Source of the DNA: Sporomusa acidovorans
GTDB lineage: Bacteria; Bacillota; Negativicutes; Sporomusales; Sporomusaceae
Reading direction: 5' to 3'
Length of the DNA stretch: 64,000 nt
NCBI RefSeq assembly: GCF_900101845.1
Contig: NZ_FNAM01000012.1
Span: 62,001 to 126,000 of the forward strand
In this document: positions 34,653 to 44,742 of the stretch, one piece after another
Layout of the letters: the number at the start of each line of letters is the position of its first letter
Numbering within the stretch: position 1 is the first letter of the stretch
Notes under the pieces: generated by a model
What the model was told of the DNA's origin: nothing
Seen by the model: only the letters and a program-made list of their open reading frames with translations
Databases searched by the model: none
Made by a program: the position numbers and the translations under genes

Positions 34653-36695
34653 CTAATTAGTGTCCTTTAGTGGAAAATTATATGCACGAAGCCTTCTGTA
34701 TAGTGTACTACGGCTCAAACCCAATATTTTTGACGCCTTTATCAGATCGTTGTCAGTATAGGCCATAACATCCATGATAGCATTTTTCTCCAGTTCACTT
34801 AAAGGTTTAAATCTGCCATACTTTGATGAAGAATCTGAAAAGCCAACCACTTCATCAGGTAAATCGCATAGTTGAATGACTCCATTTTGTGCTATATTTA
34901 CGGCCAAAAACATGGCACTTTTGAGCTGCCTGATATTTCCAGGCCATTCATATTGTGTTATTTTTCTCCAAACGGCTGGGTCCACATCACAGATTGGTAA
35001 TTTTAATCGAAAACACTGCTGTTTAATGAAAAATTGAGCAAGCGGAATAATGTCAGTACTTCTTTGCTGTAAAGAGGGTATTTCTATTTTACAAGTGGCT
35101 AAGCGATAATAGAGGTCTTCGCGGAAAGTTCTTTGCTGTACCATTTCATATACTCTTTTGTTAGTTGCGGCAATTACTCTGAAATTGACGGGTATATATT
35201 TATTTCCCCCGATACGCAGAACACGTTTATCTTCTAATACGCGTAGTAGGACGGCTTGCAAATCAAGCGGCATATCACCGATTTCATCGAGAAAGAGTGT
35301 TCCACCATTAGCCATCTCTACTTTACCAATACGCCCATTTTTATCAGCACCGGTAAAGGTACCTCCTTCATAGCCAAATAATTCGCTTTCAATAAGATTT
35401 TGCGGTATCGAAGCGCAATTAATAGCAACAAAGGGTTTTTCAGGTAATGCTTCATTGTGTATTGCTTGAGCGAACAGTTCTTTCCCGGTTCCGGTATCGC
35501 CAATTAGTAGAACGCTCAAGTCGCTATAAGCAATTTTGTTGGCAAGCTGCTTTGCTTTAATTATCTTAGGATTCTCTCCCAAGATATCTTTAAAGGTGTG
35601 TACAGCGCTAAATCCTTCAGTTTTTTCGTTAGTTATAGAAGTTTGTTTAATACTGCATACCCGTATGATTGCTCCCGCTATATCATTTTGATCAATTAAT
35701 AAAGGTTCAACCTTCAAGACACATTGCTTATTCCCATTGACTCCATTAATAGTAGCTGCAACATTGGCTGTGGAAATCTTTCCGTGTAATACGCCGGATA
35801 CTTGAGAAAAATGACCAAGCAGTTCAGAGTAATGCCTTCCTTTTATTATATCAGAATTTAATCCAAGCAATTGTTCGCCGCCTTGACTTATATAGCTAAT
35901 TTCTCCTCTGTGGTCAATAAATAGCAAGCCATCATTGACCATGGATAAGGCAGAGTCCAGAATACTACATTGAACCGCCGTGTGAAATTTATGGCTGGCT
36001 TGGGCTAAAGCTTCTTCAATCTTTCTGGCGGTTGAAAATTGCCAGGCAATTAGCCATGTGAACAATGCTTCTTCTTCTTTCGTATGTTTGTATTTACGAT
36101 AATAAGGGATAGTAAAGACGGCGGCTACATTATCTTTTGCATCATGGATAGGTACGGATATAACTACATTTCCTTTTTGCAAGACATAGTTATAGGTTTC
36201 AGGTCCGACTGTACATACAGGTTTTCCAAGAGCTGCACTTAGGGAGTGCGCTGCTGTGCCTACAGCTTCCTCGGATATATCAATTCCGGGAGTTTTTAGT
36301 TGTGCTACGCACGGGTTATGTACAGAAAGTAATATGCCATTGCGGTCTGTTAAGCCAAAGGTATAGGGAGAATTTTTGGAAATAAAACGTAAGCCTTGAG
36401 TAATTATTGGCTCAGCCACATGCAATAGTAACTGATTGTCTTTAAGAACCTTTTTAAACTGTGAGGGCTTGAGTAACTTTTCACGCAGTGAAGTTTTGGG
36501 CAAAATACCGCGCTGCTGAGAACGTAACCATGATGACGCTATCTCTTTACGAATTAAAGTATTATCTTGGGGAAGCTCATTGAAATTGATGAGTCTTTCT
36601 TTGTATTTAGTTATTTCATCCAATTGCTGAGGTTGTAAATGCATAAAAGACATTAGTTCCTGAAATTCGCTACTTGTCTCTAAAACACTATTCAT
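34653..36695 (-). CDS. Sigma-54-dependent transcriptional activator (AcoR-like)
   Basis: From ATG 36695 (GGGAGG 8 nt upstream in the reverse sense) the protein has 680 residues. The N-terminus resembles AcoR-type sensors with a GAF-like region (about 65-230), followed by a PAS domain (about 250-350: ALSMVNDGLLFIDHRGEISY). The AAA+ core has Walker A GDTGTGKE near 397, the sigma-54 loop written GTFTGA near 441 instead of the usual GAFTGA, Walker B GGTLFLDEIGDM, and a sensor RFREDLYYRL-type segment. A Fis-like helix-turn-helix ends it (NDLIKASKILGLSRSTLYRR). It is divergent from the molybdoenzyme operon, whose promoter has a -24/-12 box, so it almost certainly controls that operon. Confidence 0.92.
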   Translation of the reverse strand: MNSVLETSSEFQELMSFMHLQPQQLDEITKYKERLINFNELPQDNTLIRKEIASSWLRSQQRGILPKTSLREKLLKPSQFKKVLKDNQLLLHVAEPIITQGLRFISKNSPYTFGLTDRNGILLSVHNPCVAQLKTPGIDISEEAVGTAAHSLSAALGKPVCTVGPETYNYVLQKGNVVISVPIHDAKDNVAAVFTIPYYRKYKHTKEEEALFTWLIAWQFSTARKIEEALAQASHKFHTAVQCSILDSALSMVNDGLLFIDHRGEISYISQGGEQLLGLNSDIIKGRHYSELLGHFSQVSGVLHGKISTANVAATINGVNGNKQCVLKVEPLLIDQNDIAGAIIRVCSIKQTSITNEKTEGFSAVHTFKDILGENPKIIKAKQLANKIAYSDLSVLLIGDTGTGKELFAQAIHNEALPEKPFVAINCASIPQNLIESELFGYEGGTFTGADKNGRIGKVEMANGGTLFLDEIGDMPLDLQAVLLRVLEDKRVLRIGGNKYIPVNFRVIAATNKRVYEMVQQRTFREDLYYRLATCKIEIPSLQQRSTDIIPLAQFFIKQQCFRLKLPICDVDPAVWRKITQYEWPGNIRQLKSAMFLAVNIAQNGVIQLCDLPDEVVGFSDSSSKYGRFKPLSELEKNAIMDVMAYTDNDLIKASKILGLSRSTLYRRLRAYNFPLKDTN

Positions 36696-36838
36696 CCAAG
36701 ACAACCTCCCTATAGTTTTAAACATACTTTTCCCAAAAATCAAGTAAGAACTTTTTAGAATGAAATGATTGAGCTAGCTTTCTATAAATGTTATACCTAT
36801 ATTCTTTATTATTTGTCAAGCAAAAATAAATTAAGATC

Positions 36839-37009: not shown

Positions 37010-37021
37010 GATCTAAATTTA

Positions 37022-37038
37022 TTGGCATAATTTTTGCA
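37022..37038 (+). promoter_or_regulatory. Sigma-54 (-24/-12) promoter
   Basis: TTGGCATAATTTTTGCA fits the TGGCAC-N5-TTGCA consensus with one mismatch (T for the C after GCA) and correct GG-GC spacing. It lies about 155 nt before the first gene of the molybdoenzyme operon and opposite the sigma-54 activator gene. Confidence 0.82.
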
Positions 37039-37193: not shown

Positions 37194-39875
37194 ATGAAAC
37201 AACTAGTACTTAACAGACGCCAGTTTCTCAAAGCGACTGCCGTAACCGGGATTGCGACAGCGCTTGGTGGTTCATTTAAAACAGGGTTCACGCAAGGTGA
37301 AGCTGTGAATAGTGCACCAGCAGCAGAGACAAAGATCATTAAGACGAACTGCAGGGCATGTATTGCCAACTGTGGTGTTCTTGCACATGTCAAGAATGGT
37401 CGCGTAGTCAAGCTCGAAGGTAATCCCGAATATCCTATGAGCAAGGGAGCTCTGTGTGCCAAAGGGCTTGCTGGCATACAGGCCCTTTATCATCCCAATC
37501 GCAACAAGTATCCGATGATAAGGGTTGGTAACCGCGGTGAAAACAAATGGAAGCGCATTTCATGGGATGAGGCACTCGATACGATCGCTAAGAAACTCAT
37601 GGAGACTCGCGAAAAATATGGGGCGGAAACAGTGTTTTGCTCCACCGGCGGCGGCGGAAATCCCGAATTTTGGAGCATTCCCCGTTTTTGCAATGCCTTC
37701 GGTACACCCAATTGGTTTGAGCCTGGTTGTGCACAGTGTTACCTGCCGCGAACCTTAACTTTTGCGCTGATGTATGGCGGCCCTGATACCAGTATCGCTG
37801 ACTCAAACTGTCTGGAGATTTATGACCCTGACGATACGCCGATGAAAACATTGGTTATGTGGGGAACAGACCCCTCCTATTCCTGCCCGGCTGGTGGAGG
37901 AGGTGCCGTGGCGGAGCTTCGTGCCCGGGGAGTACGTACTGTGGTTATCGATCCGCGTCTAACTCCGGATGCAGCAAAGGCTGACGTTTGGTTGCCTATC
38001 AGGCCAGGAACAGATGTGGCGCTTATGCTGGCCTGGACCCGTTATATTATCGACAAAAAACTCTACGATCAAGACTTTGTTTTGAAATGGACAAATCTTC
38101 CTTATCTTGTAGACGTCAAGACGCAAATGTTGCTGCGGGCCAGTGAAAATGCGGAGGGGACTCCGGATACGTTTATGGTATGGGACACAAAAACCAATTC
38201 GGCGCAACCCCTGGCCTATCCATGGAACGACAACCTTACCCCTGCTCTCGAAGGTACCTTTATGATAAATGGAGTGGAATGCAAGACTGGCTTCCAACTA
38301 CTCAAGGAGCGGTCCGAGCCTTATACTCTTGAAAAAGCAGCGGAGATTTGCTGGCTTGATGCAAATAAGATCGAAGAAGCTATTAAGCTTTACGCGCTAA
38401 ACTCACCTGGCGGTATCAGCCTGGGCGTTGCGACTGACCAAAATCCCAACTCGGTGCAGGCCGCTATGGGTGCAGGTACTCTCAATGTGCTGATGGGCAA
38501 CGTGGAAAAACCAGGCGTATTGATGAATCGATTTAAAACGAGCGGAATCGCGCCTATTTTCACCTATATTGTTCCGCCTGCCTTAAAACTTCTTTCGGAA
38601 GAACAACTCAAAAAACGTTTAGGAGGCATAGAGTATAAGGGCCTTCTCCAATGGTGGGCCGCTCAACCTTCGGCAGTCCTTGACGCAATTCTTACCGGTA
38701 AACCTTACAAACCGCGCGTATGGCTTGATCGGTCCGGTAATAAGTTTGGCGTGCTTGCAAACAGTTCAGCATGGGTGCCAGCCCTTGAGCAGCTCGACTT
38801 CATCGTTCACATGTATATGTATCCTACCTCGTTTTCGACTTATGCAGATATTCTGCTCCCCACCACAGAGTGGTTGGAAACGAATATGCCAGTTGAATCC
38901 ATGAATAAGGTTTTCGCCCGACAGGCTGTGACCCATCTCTGGGAAACAATGGACGAAACGTTAATCTGGTCTAAGTTAGCCAAACGTTGCGCGGATCTGG
39001 GGCATGAGAATTGCCAGAAGGCTTTTGATCTCGATTTTATGGGCAAAGACCTTCCTTATTGGAACAGCATGGAAGAGCTTCTGGATATTTTTACGAAGTC
39101 TGCGGTCAAAATGAACTGGAAAGAGTTCGCACAAAAAGCGCCTATAGAATACCTGCCGATGAAGGAATACAAAGAGTACTATGTTTATAAGAAAATTGAT
39201 CCTCAGACAGGACTGCCGGCAGGCTTCAACACACCTTCTAAAAAGCTTGAAGTTTATATGGAAAACATGATTATTTTGGGCAGGACGGGAAAACCATTTA
39301 GTACATATCCCTTGCCCCCTGCTTCGAAGGACTATAATCCCCTGCCGTACTTCCTGGAGCCTCACGAAAGTCCACTGGAAGGCAGTGAACTTGCCAAAGA
39401 ATTTCCGTTGGTCATGACGAACGGCAGAGTCCCGGTTTATCATCATGGAACATTACGGAATGTACCTTGGCTGAGAGAAATTTATCCTGTGCCTGAAATC
39501 TGGATTAACCCCAAGACTGCAGCTAAATATGATATTTCCCAGGGAGATTGGGTCTATGTAGAATCAAAACGCGGCAAAATTCAGGCAAAAGCCTGGCTGA
39601 CAGAGGGGCAGCATCCGGGTGTTGTTTATATGGAGCGTTTTTGGAATCCAGAGACAATGGATACGGAAACTCGTGGTTGGCGTGAAATGAACGTCAACAT
39701 ACTTTCCAAGAATGATGCGCCCTTCAATGATGTTGTCGGTACCTATACGCTCAGGGGATACCTTGTCAAGATATCAAAGGCCGATGGGCCGCCGAAAGGC
39801 GTTTGGCTGAAACCACAGGAGTTCAAGAAATGGCTTCCTGAACCATCTGATCCCACAAAAGAGGTTGAGGTGTAA
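37194..39875 (+). CDS. Tat-exported molybdopterin oxidoreductase, catalytic subunit
   Basis: The 893-residue protein starts with a Tat signal (LNRRQFLKATAVTGIATALG). A [4Fe-4S] cluster site follows with C53, C56, C60 and C88, then the bis-MGD domains: RISWDEALDTIAKKL, PRFCNAFGTPNWFEPGC, MWGTDPSYSCPAGGGG, VVIDPRLTPDAAKADVWLPI, and the C-terminal MTNGRVPVYHHGTLRNVPWL with GDWVYVESKRGKIQAKAW. In the active-site stretch C179 or C182 (GCAQCYLPR) is the likely molybdenum ligand, as in the cysteine-type group (polysulfide, thiosulfate, arsenate or acetylene hydratase-like enzymes). The substrate cannot be told from sequence. GGAGAG precedes the ATG. It heads a seven-gene operon with its Fe-S and membrane subunits. 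Confidence 0.9.
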   Translation: MKQLVLNRRQFLKATAVTGIATALGGSFKTGFTQGEAVNSAPAAETKIIKTNCRACIANCGVLAHVKNGRVVKLEGNPEYPMSKGALCAKGLAGIQALYHPNRNKYPMIRVGNRGENKWKRISWDEALDTIAKKLMETREKYGAETVFCSTGGGGNPEFWSIPRFCNAFGTPNWFEPGCAQCYLPRTLTFALMYGGPDTSIADSNCLEIYDPDDTPMKTLVMWGTDPSYSCPAGGGGAVAELRARGVRTVVIDPRLTPDAAKADVWLPIRPGTDVALMLAWTRYIIDKKLYDQDFVLKWTNLPYLVDVKTQMLLRASENAEGTPDTFMVWDTKTNSAQPLAYPWNDNLTPALEGTFMINGVECKTGFQLLKERSEPYTLEKAAEICWLDANKIEEAIKLYALNSPGGISLGVATDQNPNSVQAAMGAGTLNVLMGNVEKPGVLMNRFKTSGIAPIFTYIVPPALKLLSEEQLKKRLGGIEYKGLLQWWAAQPSAVLDAILTGKPYKPRVWLDRSGNKFGVLANSSAWVPALEQLDFIVHMYMYPTSFSTYADILLPTTEWLETNMPVESMNKVFARQAVTHLWETMDETLIWSKLAKRCADLGHENCQKAFDLDFMGKDLPYWNSMEELLDIFTKSAVKMNWKEFAQKAPIEYLPMKEYKEYYVYKKIDPQTGLPAGFNTPSKKLEVYMENMIILGRTGKPFSTYPLPPASKDYNPLPYFLEPHESPLEGSELAKEFPLVMTNGRVPVYHHGTLRNVPWLREIYPVPEIWINPKTAAKYDISQGDWVYVESKRGKIQAKAWLTEGQHPGVVYMERFWNPETMDTETRGWREMNVNILSKNDAPFNDVVGTYTLRGYLVKISKADGPPKGVWLKPQEFKKWLPEPSDPTKEVEV

Positions 39876-39877
39876 TT

Positions 39878-40453
39878 ATGACGCAAAGAACTATGGTAGT
39901 TGACTTGGATCGCTGCATCGGCTGCAAATCTTGTGAGGTGGCGTGTAAACAGGAAAACGGAGTGATCCTTGGCTGTACGTGGAATAAAGTGTTGACAGTG
40001 GGGCCTACCGGTATGTTTCCCAAAGTAGAAATGTACTTTTTACCGACAATGTGCCAGGAATGTAAGGATGCACCGTGCGTTAAGGCCTGCCCAACCGGGG
40101 CGTCCTATAAGAATGAGGATGGAGTTGTCCTTATCGATAAAGAAAAGTGCATTGGTTGCCGGTATTGCATGATGGCCTGCCCTTACGGCGTCCGTACCTT
40201 TAACGAAGAGACTAAGGTAGTGGAAAAGTGCACGCTGTGCACCCAGTTGCAAGCCATTGGCGAGCAGCCGGCTTGTGTAAAAAATTGTCCGGCAAAGTGC
40301 CGGTTTGTGGGCGACATCGACGATCCGAACAGTGATGTTTCCCAAGTCATTCAAAAAGCTGGCAGCGAAAATGTGCATGTTCTGCCGGATGTAGGGAACC
40401 ATCCTTCTGCCCGGTATATATTGCATAGCAAAACGGCCACATGGAAGGAGTGA
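39878..40453 (+). CDS. Four-cluster [4Fe-4S] electron-transfer subunit (DmsB/PsrB-like)
   Basis: The 191-residue protein has four ferredoxin cysteine clusters in the DmsB/PsrB/NrfC order: CIGCKSCEVACKQE, CQECKDAPCVKACPTGA, CIGCRYCMMACPYG, and CTLCTQLQAIGEQPACVKNC followed by PAKC. It passes electrons between the molybdoenzyme and the membrane subunit encoded next. No signal peptide is present; it should ride out with the Tat substrate as a complex. The gene begins two bases after the catalytic subunit's stop, implying coupled translation. Confidence 0.93.
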   Translation: MTQRTMVVDLDRCIGCKSCEVACKQENGVILGCTWNKVLTVGPTGMFPKVEMYFLPTMCQECKDAPCVKACPTGASYKNEDGVVLIDKEKCIGCRYCMMACPYGVRTFNEETKVVEKCTLCTQLQAIGEQPACVKNCPAKCRFVGDIDDPNSDVSQVIQKAGSENVHVLPDVGNHPSARYILHSKTATWKE

Positions 40454-40457
40454 TAGC

Positions 40458-41339
40458 ATGAATATTCAATGGCCATTAGTTTTCTTTACATTGTTTATCG
40501 GGCTTGGCTGCGGAACCTTTGCTGGCTCTGTTATCTTGACCGAATGGTATGGCAAGGCAAAACAAATTAGAACCATCAGTTCGCTGATTGCGATTGTGTC
40601 AATTGGCGTCGGTGGCGTGTCAAGTACCCTGCACTTAGGCCATCCGGAGCGAATGTTTGGTGCGTTGGGTCATCCAACTTCCGGCATCTTCATGGAGTCA
40701 GCGCTGAGCTTCCTGTTAGGTCTGGCCATTATTATTTATCTTTTGGCACTCAGGAGAAACGCTGCTGCTGCAACCTGCAAAGCGATCGGAACCGTTGGCG
40801 CGGTACTGGCGGTCGGACTTACGTTTGTTAACGGTGATGCCTATGTGATGGCTTCCATACCTGCCTGGAACACATGGATTCTGCCGGCATTTTATTTGAC
40901 CTCAGCAGCGGTTATGGGTTGCTTCAGTATCGGTGTGCTGCTTGCACATACAGTAAACTACAACACAACGATGACAGCGGAGACGGCAGCAACAACAGAA
41001 CCCATAGCAGCAAGCGGCATGATAAAACAGGCGACGCTGATTGCCCTGGCCGTTCAAGCGGTGGTGCTCGTGGCGTACTTGCTACACATAGCCAGTGCGC
41101 CTTATCCTGATGTGACTCGATCGGTCACGCGGGTTTTGGCCGGCAATCTGGCTCCCCTCTTCTGGGGAGGAGTGGTGCTGCTCGGTTTACTGGTTCCTAC
41201 AGCGCTGATGACGAAGTTTTATACGAAAAATAATGAGGGGTTCCCGGTCAAGCTCGGCTTGGCTGCCGTTCTGGCAGCGGGCGTTGCCTTTCGAGCCTTG
41301 ATGTTCTTACTCGGAAGTAGTATTAAGCAATTTTTTTAA
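40458..41339 (+). CDS. DmsC-family membrane anchor subunit
   Basis: The 293-residue protein has eight predicted membrane helices and the DmsC family start QWPLVFFTLFIGLGCGTFAG, then GGVSSTLHLGHPERMFGALG, in which the histidine-rich loop is typical of DmsC anchors that exchange electrons with menaquinol. It links the periplasm-facing catalytic and Fe-S subunits to the quinone pool. It starts four bases after the Fe-S subunit gene. The anchor is DmsC-like rather than NrfD-like, which is of interest for predicting quinone chemistry. Confidence 0.88.
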   Translation: MNIQWPLVFFTLFIGLGCGTFAGSVILTEWYGKAKQIRTISSLIAIVSIGVGGVSSTLHLGHPERMFGALGHPTSGIFMESALSFLLGLAIIIYLLALRRNAAAATCKAIGTVGAVLAVGLTFVNGDAYVMASIPAWNTWILPAFYLTSAAVMGCFSIGVLLAHTVNYNTTMTAETAATTEPIAASGMIKQATLIALAVQAVVLVAYLLHIASAPYPDVTRSVTRVLAGNLAPLFWGGVVLLGLLVPTALMTKFYTKNNEGFPVKLGLAAVLAAGVAFRALMFLLGSSIKQFF

Positions 41340-41405: not shown

Positions 41406-42092
41406 GTGGAGAAATTAGTAGAGTACTCAGCAATTATGGAAAACCGAGAAAATTTATACCGTTTTTTGGGACGACTCTATAAAGTTGAAGTCGATCAGGC
41501 CTTGCTGGACCAGCTAGAAGGCCTGTGCTTTCCTGTTGAGTGCGGCGAAGACGAACTTGCCGCCGGCTACCGGCTGCTGGCAGGGTATTGTCAACAGCTT
41601 ACGGGCGATCCGTTGACCGATCTGGCCGTAGATTACGCAAGGGTGTTTCTGGGGGCAGGAATAGCCGGGAACGAAGCGGCCTATCCATATGAGTCTGTTT
41701 ATACAAGTCCTAAAAGGTTGATCATGCAGGAGGCGCGCGATCAAGTGATGGCAGCCTACCGCGCAAAAGGCTTGAGCAAGCTGGAAACGCTCGATGTTCC
41801 GGAAGATCATATCGCCCTGGAACTTGAATTTATGGCGTACCTATGCCAGGAGACGCAACAAGCTTTGTCTAGGCGGGACTGGCCGGCAGTTGCAACCTGT
41901 CTTAAGGAGCAACGGGATTTTTTTGTCCAGCATTTACTGAATTGGGTTCCGGCGTTCTGTGCCGACATCGAGAAGTATGGTGAGACTAAGTTCTATAAAG
42001 CGGTTGCGAAAATTACCAAGGGCTATTTGCGTTTGGAACGTACCCTAATGGAAGAACTCATCGAGGAAATAGTTGTGGAGGTTGGTGCATAA
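41406..42092 (+). CDS. TorD/DmsD-family maturation chaperone
   Basis: The 228-residue, all-helical protein has the TorD/DmsD features: NRENLYRFLGRLYKVEVDQA at the start, LAVDYARVFLGAGIAGNEAAYPYESVYT (Y-x-x-x-F-x-G and the P-Y-E-S segment), and DHIALELEFMAYLCQE (the E-x-D-H-I-x-x-E-L-x-F-M block). These cytoplasmic chaperones hold the Tat signal of the molybdoenzyme until cofactor insertion is complete. GTG 41406 is chosen as start behind GTGGGGGA. Its stop is immediately followed by the next ATG. Only the catalytic subunit and the NapG-like protein here have Tat signals, so these are its likely clients. Confidence 0.9.
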   Translation: MEKLVEYSAIMENRENLYRFLGRLYKVEVDQALLDQLEGLCFPVECGEDELAAGYRLLAGYCQQLTGDPLTDLAVDYARVFLGAGIAGNEAAYPYESVYTSPKRLIMQEARDQVMAAYRAKGLSKLETLDVPEDHIALELEFMAYLCQETQQALSRRDWPAVATCLKEQRDFFVQHLLNWVPAFCADIEKYGETKFYKAVAKITKGYLRLERTLMEELIEEIVVEVGA

Positions 42093-42686
42093 ATGACCTC
42101 ACGGCGCACCTTCCTAAAAATAACCGGAGGAGCGTTTGCCCTTGTTCTCGGGCTGGGAGAAGCCGCAAAGATTCTGCCCCGTACAGCTCTTCTCCGTCCG
42201 CCGGGGGGACAGGACGAAAACGCGTTTATCGCGAGATGTCTACGCTGTGATCGTTGCCGGAGTGTTTGTCCCACAGCGGTGATCGGTCTGGCGAATTTAG
42301 CGGACGGCATCCTGGACGCGCGTACGCCCGTGATGAAGTTTCATCTTGGGTATTGCAATTTTTGCAATCAATGTGTTGCCGTCTGCCCCACGCAGGCATT
42401 GAAACCTTTTGACAGGGAGACGGTGAAGATTGGTCTGGCGACAGTGAAGAAGGACATTTGCATCGCCTGGGATGCCAGCGGCTGTACGGTGTGCATGAAT
42501 GCGTGCCCTTATCAGGCGATCCTGCTTGACGGACAAGGCCGGCCGAGCGTTGATCCCCAGAAGTGCAACGGCTGCGGCATTTGCGAGAAGGTCTGCCCCG
42601 CACTGGTGATGCGATCATACATTGGCGGCAATGTGCGCGGAATTGTCGTCACACCCATTGCCACGAGAGGGGAGGGCCGCGTATGA
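42093..42686 (+). CDS. NapG/MauM-like Tat-exported ferredoxin
   Basis: The 197-residue protein starts with a Tat signal (TSRRTFLKITGGAFALVLG) and contains four [4Fe-4S] motifs: CLRCDRCRSVCPTAV, CNFCNQCVAVCPTQA, CTVCMNACPYQA (with an upstream C), and CNGCGICEKVCPALV. NapG proteins pair with NapH to take electrons from menaquinol to a periplasmic reductase. The following NapH-like gene overlaps it by four bases. Its presence next to a DmsC anchor gives the operon two possible routes from the quinone pool. Confidence 0.9.
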   Translation: MTSRRTFLKITGGAFALVLGLGEAAKILPRTALLRPPGGQDENAFIARCLRCDRCRSVCPTAVIGLANLADGILDARTPVMKFHLGYCNFCNQCVAVCPTQALKPFDRETVKIGLATVKKDICIAWDASGCTVCMNACPYQAILLDGQGRPSVDPQKCNGCGICEKVCPALVMRSYIGGNVRGIVVTPIATRGEGRV

Positions 42687-43567
42687 ATAGGCATAGAACA
42701 AGGACGCTTAGATTGGCAACCATGGCGGCCGTAGTGATCATGCTTGTGATTGGTGCGGTCAGAAATGCCGGCACCGGGTCAATTTCTGCCTTCGGTGTGG
42801 AGAATATCGCCGCGATTTGTCCTCTGGGCTACCTGGAAACAGCGCTTGCCGGCCGGGATATCATGCCCCAATTGCTCATCGTTTTTCTCGTGATTGCCGG
42901 ACTGACCGCCTTGCTGGGGCGTGTCTTTTGCGGCTGGATTTGCCCCATTCCGCTAGTGCGCAAATTATTGGTCAATAGAATTGACGAAGGCCAACAGGCT
43001 GCTATAAATAGCAGCTGCCCTGATGAGGCGGAGCAGCCGGTTCTTAAGGAAACTGCGGCAGCAAAGGCTTCCTGCCTGCAAAAGGGTTTTGACGCTAAGA
43101 AAAATTCAACATCAGGACTCATGATTCTTGGTGTAACTTTGGGGTCTGCCGCCATTTGCGGTTTTCCCGTATTCTGTTTGATCTGCCCGCTAGGACTAGT
43201 CTTTGCGACCTTGTTTGCCTTGATCCGTCTCATTCATTTCAACGAGCCGACAATGGATCTCATCGTTTTTCCCATGATAGTCATTGTTGAACTTGTGCTT
43301 TTGAAAAAATGGTGCAGTAAATGGTGTCCTGTCGGCGCTTTGCTCAGCCTCTTCAGCAAGTTCAACCGTAGTCTTGTGCCTACCGTGGACCGTTCCCGCT
43401 GTCTGGAAGAGGGCCAGGGTAGCCAGTGTCAGCGCTGCCGCAGTGCCTGCAGCTTTGACGTGGATCTTAAAAACGGCAAGGGAACAGGCGGTATCAGTGA
43501 ATGTACCAAGTGCCGCGAATGTGCCGATACCTGTCCGGTGCAGGCGATTCGATTTCCCTGGAGGTGA
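42683..43567 (+). CDS. NapH-like membrane polyferredoxin
   Basis: From ATG 42683 (GGGGAGGG upstream) the protein has 294 residues. It has four or more membrane helices and cytoplasmic C-x3-C-P motifs in FCGWICPIPLVRKL and WCSKWCPVGALLSLFSK, with another CLICPLG, as NapH/YccM proteins show. The C-terminal ferredoxin domain carries CQRCRSACSFDV and CTKCRECADTCPVQA. NapH draws electrons from menaquinol and hands them to NapG. A frame extending upstream to 42563 lies inside the napG-like gene and is not used. Confidence 0.9.
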   Translation: MNRHRTRTLRLATMAAVVIMLVIGAVRNAGTGSISAFGVENIAAICPLGYLETALAGRDIMPQLLIVFLVIAGLTALLGRVFCGWICPIPLVRKLLVNRIDEGQQAAINSSCPDEAEQPVLKETAAAKASCLQKGFDAKKNSTSGLMILGVTLGSAAICGFPVFCLICPLGLVFATLFALIRLIHFNEPTMDLIVFPMIVIVELVLLKKWCSKWCPVGALLSLFSKFNRSLVPTVDRSRCLEEGQGSQCQRCRSACSFDVDLKNGKGTGGISECTKCRECADTCPVQAIRFPWR

Positions 43568-43575
43568 ATACTTAC

Positions 43576-44742
43576 ATGCTGTCTAAACTTGAACAATTTT
43601 CCAAAGCCTGCGCCAAGCTTGGCAAGCGCGGGATCGTCATACAGGACAAGCGGTGTCTGCATAAGCGACATGTTCACAGCTCCTGCCAGCTCTGTGCAGC
43701 AGTGTGTCCCCATGGTGCCATCACCTGTTCAGCGGGCATTACCCTGCTCGCTGAACAGTGTACCGGCTGCGGTGCCTGCACGGCGGTCTGCCCCAGCGGG
43801 GCGCTTGCTGCTAAGCTGCCTTCTTTTCAAGAATTACGGTCACTTGTCGCCCGGCATGTGGCCTATTCGGGAGCCGTCGCTTTCGCTTGCGAGGCCTATC
43901 TTACCTCTCATCCCTCCGAGCGCCGGCGCGTCATCGCTGTGCAATGTACCGCGCGGTGCGATGAAGCCGTTCTTGTCGATGCGGTTCTGCGGGGCGCAAC
44001 CAACGTGGCGATCCTCAGTGCCGCTTGTGCGGATTGCTCACAAACCAAGCTTTGTGAGCTGGTTCAGACAATGGCGGACACGGCTAACCGGTTATTGGCA
44101 CGTTGGCAGTATCCTACCGTGATTGCGCTTACAGAGAAGATTCCGGCGAACATTAAACCTCTGCCTGTTAGCGAAGGCGAGGCGACAGGAATGTCACGGC
44201 GAGCTTTTCTTAGCGCCTTTACGAAGCAAAGTGCGAGTTTGTTTACACAGGTGCTGCCGGAAATGATCGCTGGTGCTGATGAACAACAACCGGAAAACAG
44301 TAACGTACGGCAAAATCCACTGGAAGAGTCGAAGTATTTACCGGATAAGTGGTCCTCATTGATTAATTTGCTAAAACAACTGAAAAACACGGCGGACCCT
44401 GCGAATTTTTCCAGCAGACTCTGGGGAGATATCTGCCTGGCTGATAGCTGCAATGGCTGCGGGGCTTGTGCAGACGCCTGTCCAACCGGGGCCCTGATGA
44501 CTGGCAGGCAGGAGAACGCTTGGAGTATTTCCTTGGATGCGTCGCGGTGCACACGGTGTGGCTTATGCCAGGATGTCTGTTGCCATGAAAGTATCAAAAT
44601 GATCCCGACTGTCGCCCTAGACACACTGCTGGCCCAAGGGCCGCGGGTACTCATCATAAAAAAACAAGACGATATCGATCAGTTGTTTGAGCCGATAGAC
44701 CGGCGCATGGCTCGCTTGTTGGGGTGCGAGGCAAAGAATTGA
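43576..44742 (+). CDS. Ferredoxin protein with MvhD/FlpD-like middle domain
   Basis: From ATG 43576 (CTGGAGGTG upstream) the protein has 388 residues in three parts. First, two [4Fe-4S] motifs, CQLCAAVCPHGA and CTGCGACTAVCPSG. Second, residues 85-200 with FACEAY, VIAVQCTARCDEAVLVDAVL and AACADC, resembling the iron-sulfur delta subunit (MvhD/FlpD) that docks on heterodisulfide reductase. Third, after a twin-arginine-like MSRRAFLSAF at about 205 that is internal and probably not a signal, two more [4Fe-4S] motifs, CNGCGACADACPTGA and CTRCGLCQDVC. It seems a cytoplasmic electron hub at the end of the operon; its partner is unknown. I do not know a named protein with this arrangement. Confidence 0.7.
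   Translation: MLSKLEQFSKACAKLGKRGIVIQDKRCLHKRHVHSSCQLCAAVCPHGAITCSAGITLLAEQCTGCGACTAVCPSGALAAKLPSFQELRSLVARHVAYSGAVAFACEAYLTSHPSERRRVIAVQCTARCDEAVLVDAVLRGATNVAILSAACADCSQTKLCELVQTMADTANRLLARWQYPTVIALTEKIPANIKPLPVSEGEATGMSRRAFLSAFTKQSASLFTQVLPEMIAGADEQQPENSNVRQNPLEESKYLPDKWSSLINLLKQLKNTADPANFSSRLWGDICLADSCNGCGACADACPTGALMTGRQENAWSISLDASRCTRCGLCQDVCCHESIKMIPTVALDTLLAQGPRVLIIKKQDDIDQLFEPIDRRMARLLGCEAKN

Follow-up and report, generated by a model that had tools for sequence, protein, structure and literature searches.

The final gene of a tight molybdoenzyme operon in Sporomusa acidovorans encodes a 388-residue protein in which two ferredoxin domains flank a domain resembling MvhD, the delta subunit that links hydrogenase to heterodisulfide reductase. 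What such a protein does behind a molybdoenzyme is the question raised by this locus. According to the original prediction, it could connect the quinone/molybdoenzyme branch with a cytoplasmic flavin-based or HdrA-like partner, an arrangement held to be new for such operons. We examined the gene in its window (the whole stretch of DNA that was analysed, 64,000 nucleotides) together with homologous loci from other genomes.

The features of the operon and of the protein are collected in Table 1. The candidate promoter upstream, TTGGCATAATTTTTGCA, is a good match to the sigma-54 -24/-12 pattern and lies about 157 bases ahead of the operon's first gene. Among solved structures, the molybdoenzyme is closest in sequence to acetylene hydratase (2e7z, 214 bits) and to thiosulfate/polysulfide reductase (2vpw).

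Table 1. Features of the operon and of its last gene, in positions of the window.
Feature	Position	Strand	Basis
Divergent sigma-54 activator (PAS-AAA-Fis)	34653..36743	-	profile
Candidate sigma-54 promoter TTGGCATAATTTTTGCA	37021..37037	+	pattern match only
Molybdopterin oxidoreductase catalytic subunit, Tat signal	37194..39875	+	profile
DmsB/ArrB-type Fe-S electron transfer subunit	39878..40453	+	profile
NrfD/DmsC-type membrane anchor	40458..41339	+	profile
TorD-family molybdoenzyme chaperone	41406..42092	+	PF02613
NapG-like exported ferredoxin	42093..42686	+	profile
NapH-like membrane ferredoxin	42683..43567	+	profile
Ribosome binding site GGAGGTG	43560..43566	+	sequence
Ferredoxin / FlpD-like / RR linker / ferredoxin gene, complete, 388 aa (ATG at 43576, stop at 44742)	43576..44742	+	ORF inspection, sequence
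N-terminal 2[4Fe-4S] domain, residues 27-79	43654..43812	+	profile, alignment
FlpD/MvhD-like domain, residues ~99-187	43870..44136	+	profile and predicted fold
Family-specific Cys site C105, C124, C151, C154	43888..44037	+	15/16 aligned members
Internal twin-arginine motif S-R-R-A-F-L, residues 207-212	44194..44211	+	alignment
C-terminal 2[4Fe-4S] domain, residues 290-341	44443..44598	+	profile, alignment

The predicted fusion of ferredoxin, MvhD-like and ferredoxin parts at the end of the operon was borne out, with one 2[4Fe-4S] domain on either side of an FlpD-like domain. The cluster cysteines are residues 27/37/40/44 and 62/65/68/72 in the N-terminal domain and 292/295/298/302 and 325/328/331/335 in the C-terminal one. 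We aligned 16 divergent family members, leaving aside the formate dehydrogenase type, whose middle cysteines are lost. C27, C37, C40, C44, C68, C72 and C124 are kept in all 16 sequences; C105, C151 and C154 are kept in 15, as is the motif of the first N-terminal cluster, C-x9-C-x2-C-x3-CP. The internal RR-F-L motif, already pointed out in the original prediction, proved to be invariant at both arginines (R208 and R209, 16/16). From this cysteine pattern the middle domain is predicted to have a cluster site of its own within an FlpD-like fold. Neither a signal peptide nor a transmembrane segment is apparent in the protein (maximum hydropathy over 19 residues, 1.49). The catalytic subunit, by contrast, carries a Tat signal, and the protein itself is probably located in the cytoplasm.

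Profile searches and a predicted structure both relate the middle domain to MvhD/FlpD. The Pfam FlpD profile (PF02662) scores 21.9 bits on the protein itself, against a cut-off of 22.3, and 24.0 bits, above that cut-off, in a six-frame search of the genome; a haloarchaeal family member from an equivalent operon reaches 66 bits. A profile made from FlpD sequences only, without family members, matches the middle domain at E=1.6e-4, with 0 matches in 200 shuffles. An iterated profile gives 57 bits, a score that is partly circular because family members had joined it. For residues 20-205, an AlphaFold model based on 22 sequences (pLDDT 86.3) is matched by Foldseek to solved MvhD/FlpD chains (5odh_D/5odc_D, 7bkb_F and 8rvu_F) over 97-98 columns, with a probability of 1.00 and a target TM of ~0.5, a fold match that is not fully independent since the input alignment contained FlpD sequences. 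Full-length prediction from four sequences gave a pLDDT of 36, and the reliable model is confined to residues 20-205. The structural similarity that had been set beforehand as the test of the MvhD resemblance was found, and sequence and model together make the middle domain a relative of MvhD/FlpD.

The canonical FlpD cysteine set (C-x2-C, pC, GC-x4-C) is incomplete in the alignment of the 388-residue protein: C105, C124 and C154 fall on FlpD cysteines; the second FlpD cysteine has been lost, and C151 stands two residues away from the place of the fourth. The protein thus has the fold and some of the cysteines of MvhD/FlpD. With HdrA-FlpD fusions it has in common the order of ferredoxin and FlpD parts; these fusions, however, contain the HdrA flavin domain, whereas the Sporomusa protein has neither a flavin domain nor a nearby HdrA gene. 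When the HdrA profile is run on the protein, it aligns only over the ferredoxin and FlpD region. Tandem double [2x4Fe-4S - FlpD] modules were also seen in proteins of Bathyarchaeota and Chloroflexi (L046, 149-1399; L041, 9473-10714; L070, 10180-11448), and the last of these genes adjoins an hdrA gene.

We then surveyed the neighbourhoods of homologues, which were collected regardless of their neighbours from plasmid records, same-phylum genomes, Actinomycetota and Gammaproteobacteria as GTDB defines them. The resulting 59 loci come from at least five phyla (Bacillota, Actinomycetota, Pseudomonadota, Campylobacterota and Halobacteria), loci of the same genus not being independent. A molybdenum oxidoreductase gene lies within 9 kb at 44/59 loci and TorD is encoded at 37/59. 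NapGH is found at 13 loci, spread over more than one phylum, MobB or MobB-MobA at 10 (nine of them directly adjacent), Mrp/NBP35 at five, TatC at three and MoeA at two; the TorD, MobB, MobA-like, MoeA and TatC assignments were confirmed with Pfam. At least one molybdoenzyme or maturation gene is present at 52 of the 59 loci, and the tested genes are absent from seven, one of which is a fragment and one near a contig end. There are loci at which the family gene directly adjoins mobB(A), tatC, moeA or the gene of the Fe-S carrier Mrp. Because the molybdoenzyme types differ among loci (arx, formate dehydrogenase with DUF3305/3306, haloarchaeal, NapGH type), the constant partner is the enzyme plus its maturation tools and not one electron pathway; the electron-transfer partners vary.

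Several loci of the survey have features of their own. In Coriobacteriia-type Actinomycetota (L181, L182, L185 and L187-L191), the family gene directly adjoins mobB or mobB-mobA; a CcdA-thioredoxin fusion gene is nearby in four such loci, and one Coriobacteriia-type genome holds six family matches. Family copies at L179 (3517-6123) and L180 (4076-11003) are flanked by multiheme cytochromes with up to 18 CxxCH motifs, with no molybdoenzyme in view.

The same survey bears on the proposed HdrA link. Genes for HdrA, HdrB or a second FlpD were found by profile search at 0/59 loci; as a control, separate HdrA genes score at least 138 bits with the HdrA profile and three HdrA-FlpD fusions 38-47 bits, near the threshold of 40. 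One weak HdrA match, at L015, covers only a short Rossmann-type stretch and was not taken as HdrA. No hydrogenase gene is annotated at the plasmid loci. The suggestion to look for hdrA elsewhere in the genome did yield the gene, but in a MetFV-HdrABC-MvhD cluster that includes an MvhD of its own (L025, G000:C31, 7791-12603; HdrA 948 aa), an arrangement known from acetogens (PMC6085437, PMC5736913). This cluster adjoins NuoEF/Fe-hydrogenase-like genes.

An electron-transfer adaptor, whose FlpD-like domain would link the NapGH/quinone branch to HdrA, a hydrogenase or a ferredoxin in the cytoplasm, is on these grounds unlikely. The true homology of the middle domain to MvhD/FlpD speaks for it, as do the HdrABC encoded in the host, the position of NapH directly upstream in Sporomusa, an HdrA N-terminal-like domain in one long family member, and the N-terminal ferredoxin, whose best structural alignments include the HdrA C-terminal ferredoxin (Z ~10, against 8-9 for other ferredoxins). 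Yet HdrA, HdrB and a second FlpD are missing from all 59 neighbourhoods, the host HdrA is already provided with an MvhD, the protein has no flavin domain and a changed FlpD cysteine pattern, and the family also occurs in operons without napGH, in haloarchaea and in proteobacteria. The link of the protein to HdrA or hydrogenase is thus not supported, although proteins can meet without gene linkage.

The expected novelty of the arrangement for such operons did not hold either, as homologues are found in arx, formate dehydrogenase and haloarchaeal molybdoenzyme operons. By sequence, ArxB2 (ArxB') of arsenite oxidase operons belongs to the family: it has the same three-part layout and cysteine sites, and its homology is full length, covering both ferredoxin parts and the middle. 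The homologue on the Sulfuricella denitrificans plasmid pSCD is 30.6% identical over 87%, in an arxB2ABCD-like layout with regulators on the opposite strand; the ArxA of this strain is discussed in PMC6549141. According to that paper, ArxB2 is a ferredoxin with an unclear role and its gene seems confined to arx, whereas the family is much wider than arx operons. Compared with arx operons, the operon in the window has no arxSR-like two-component pair and has napGH added, and the GRGWG motif known from reports on ArxA is missing from its catalytic subunit. Without these regulators and this motif, the 388-residue protein counts as a family relative of ArxB2 and not as ArxB2 itself.

Two further proteins from the literature or from known operons invite comparison. 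The 4Fe-4S protein of DUF3305/DUF3306 formate dehydrogenase operons is homologous and adjoins TorD and a molybdoenzyme, but is longer (~650 aa), has an extra N-terminal part and has lost the middle cysteines. DmsH of Shewanella oneidensis, which may be a family member, is predicted to be cytoplasmic and is encoded after the TorD-like dmsG; deletion of dmsH impairs DMSO and iodate reduction (PMC11302344). In a literature search of limited reach, we found no paper naming the family or its FlpD relationship.

PMC6683785 counts ArxB2 among structural components, and in many operons the family gene is encoded alongside the enzyme. Both observations would suit a protein that stays in the mature respiratory complex, as a subunit or as its electron-transfer arm, in line with the label of arsenite oxidase small subunit sometimes given to ArxB2. 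We regard this role as quite improbable, since, unlike the catalytic subunit with its Tat signal, the protein shows no apparent Tat or Sec signal or membrane segment, and since several copies, among them coriobacterial ones without an adjacent molybdoenzyme, directly adjoin only mobBA.

Within Sporomusa, the gene sits directly behind napGH. The genome of the window encodes three copies of the 388-residue protein. The other two and those in other Sporomusa-group genomes are 62-73% identical to it over their full length (62-71% for the copies of related genomes, 70% in Sporomusa silvacetica). The gene order molybdoenzyme, Fe-S subunit, NrfD, TorD, NapG, NapH and 388-residue type is common to nine loci, at one of which the last gene is frameshifted. 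Decayed copies were seen at L022/L035, L023 and L024: one is frameshifted, one is a fragment fused behind a NapH-like piece and one is a C-terminal fragment adjoining another molybdoenzyme operon.

A position directly behind napGH would fit an electron-transfer role too. The protein could be mainly a redox-balancing electron conduit at NapH, from quinol to a cytoplasmic Fe-S protein, with no direct assembly role, a reading in keeping with the presence of NapH near the gene at 13 loci, not all of one phylum, and with the title of Kern and Simon 2009, cited in PMC10609526, according to which membrane attachment of Wolinella NapF needs NapH. Against this conduit, to which we likewise assign little probability, stand the other 46 loci without NapGH. 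Very improbable is a sensory or regulatory role in the cytoplasm, in which the protein would detect redox state or control the operon or the supply of cofactor; the many cluster motifs and the absence of a catalytic domain would agree with it, but the protein has no DNA-binding or signalling domain and dedicated sigma-54 or two-component regulators already stand beside many loci.

The nearest functional analogue is NapF. It is reported to bind NapA in E. coli and to be required for Fe-S assembly in NapA in R. sphaeroides, whereas its effects are marginal in E. coli and Wolinella (PMC10609526). On a Citrobacter plasmid, napF occupies the same slot behind dmsABC-TorD. Both proteins have four [4Fe-4S] motifs, no apparent export signal and NapGH or TorD neighbours. 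The NapF profile (TIGR00402) gives 39.7 bits on the 388-residue protein and does not reach the equivalog cut-off of 102.2. Profile comparison with NapF yields 83.0 and 88.1 for swapped halves against 75.1 and 78.4 when the order is kept, a modest likeness, as dicluster ferredoxins all score against one another; in plain BLAST of the two proteins, cross-matches among all cluster motifs leave the result ambiguous.

NapF opens with an N terminus of the S-R-R-x-F-L type followed by a dicluster, an arrangement found in the C-terminal half of the Sporomusa protein. The C-terminal dicluster of NapF has the spacing C-x6/7-C-x2-C-x3-C and the N-terminal dicluster here C-x9-C-x2-C-x3-C, and such a long first gap occurs in only 11/132 background ferredoxin-type ORFs. 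A twin-arginine segment followed by a dicluster, and a second dicluster with a long first gap, are thus both present, in halves that are swapped relative to NapF. Given this arrangement, the long-gap motif and the profile scores, the protein resembles a NapF whose halves have changed places and into which an FlpD-like domain has been inserted; NapF, at ~165 aa, has no such domain between its halves.

Alternatively, the N-terminal part may stem from the ferredoxin-FlpD end of HdrA-FlpD fusions, since the order is the same and a long haloarchaeal member keeps an HdrA N-terminal-like domain. That member lacks the flavin domain. The long family members lie at L030 (7197-9143) and L031 (7095-9197), with Mrp/NBP35 shortly downstream of both.

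We favour, with some confidence, a role of the 388-residue protein in the cytoplasm, where it would serve exported Mo/Fe-S oxidoreductases as an assembly or redox factor of the NapF kind. The family's constant neighbours point to this role, being the enzyme, its chaperone and the functions of nucleotide attachment to the Mo cofactor, its insertion, Fe-S carriage and Tat export; the lack of an apparent export signal and the analogy to NapF point the same way. Function is here read from gene context, which by itself does not tell an assembly role apart from a structural or electron-transfer one. As a NapF-like factor, the protein would dock with the catalytic subunit while the latter is bound to TorD and has not yet left the cytoplasm; in Sporomusa it would also dock with the cytoplasmic face of NapH. 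With up to five clusters, if all are occupied, it would supply electrons or Fe-S units while the [4Fe-4S] clusters and the Mo cofactor are being installed, ahead of Tat export. We infer the docking and the cluster occupancy, and propose the donor role by analogy to NapF.

More tentatively, the protein may represent a widespread unnamed family of molybdoenzyme assembly ferredoxins that includes ArxB2 and the 4Fe-4S protein of formate dehydrogenase operons. Members would join an HdrA-MvhD-like ferredoxin-FlpD end to a NapF-like RR-ferredoxin, carry their own cluster site in the FlpD fold and act as reductant or Fe-S donor in the maturation of Mo-enzymes. The MvhD/FlpD fold would then be used here away from hydrogenase and HdrA. 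The route by which Fe-S clusters and electrons reach TorD-dependent Mo-enzymes before Tat export is poorly known, and joining ArxB2, the formate dehydrogenase operon protein and the mobBA-linked coriobacterial proteins as one family would make the invariant arginines and cysteines a concrete target for mutation.
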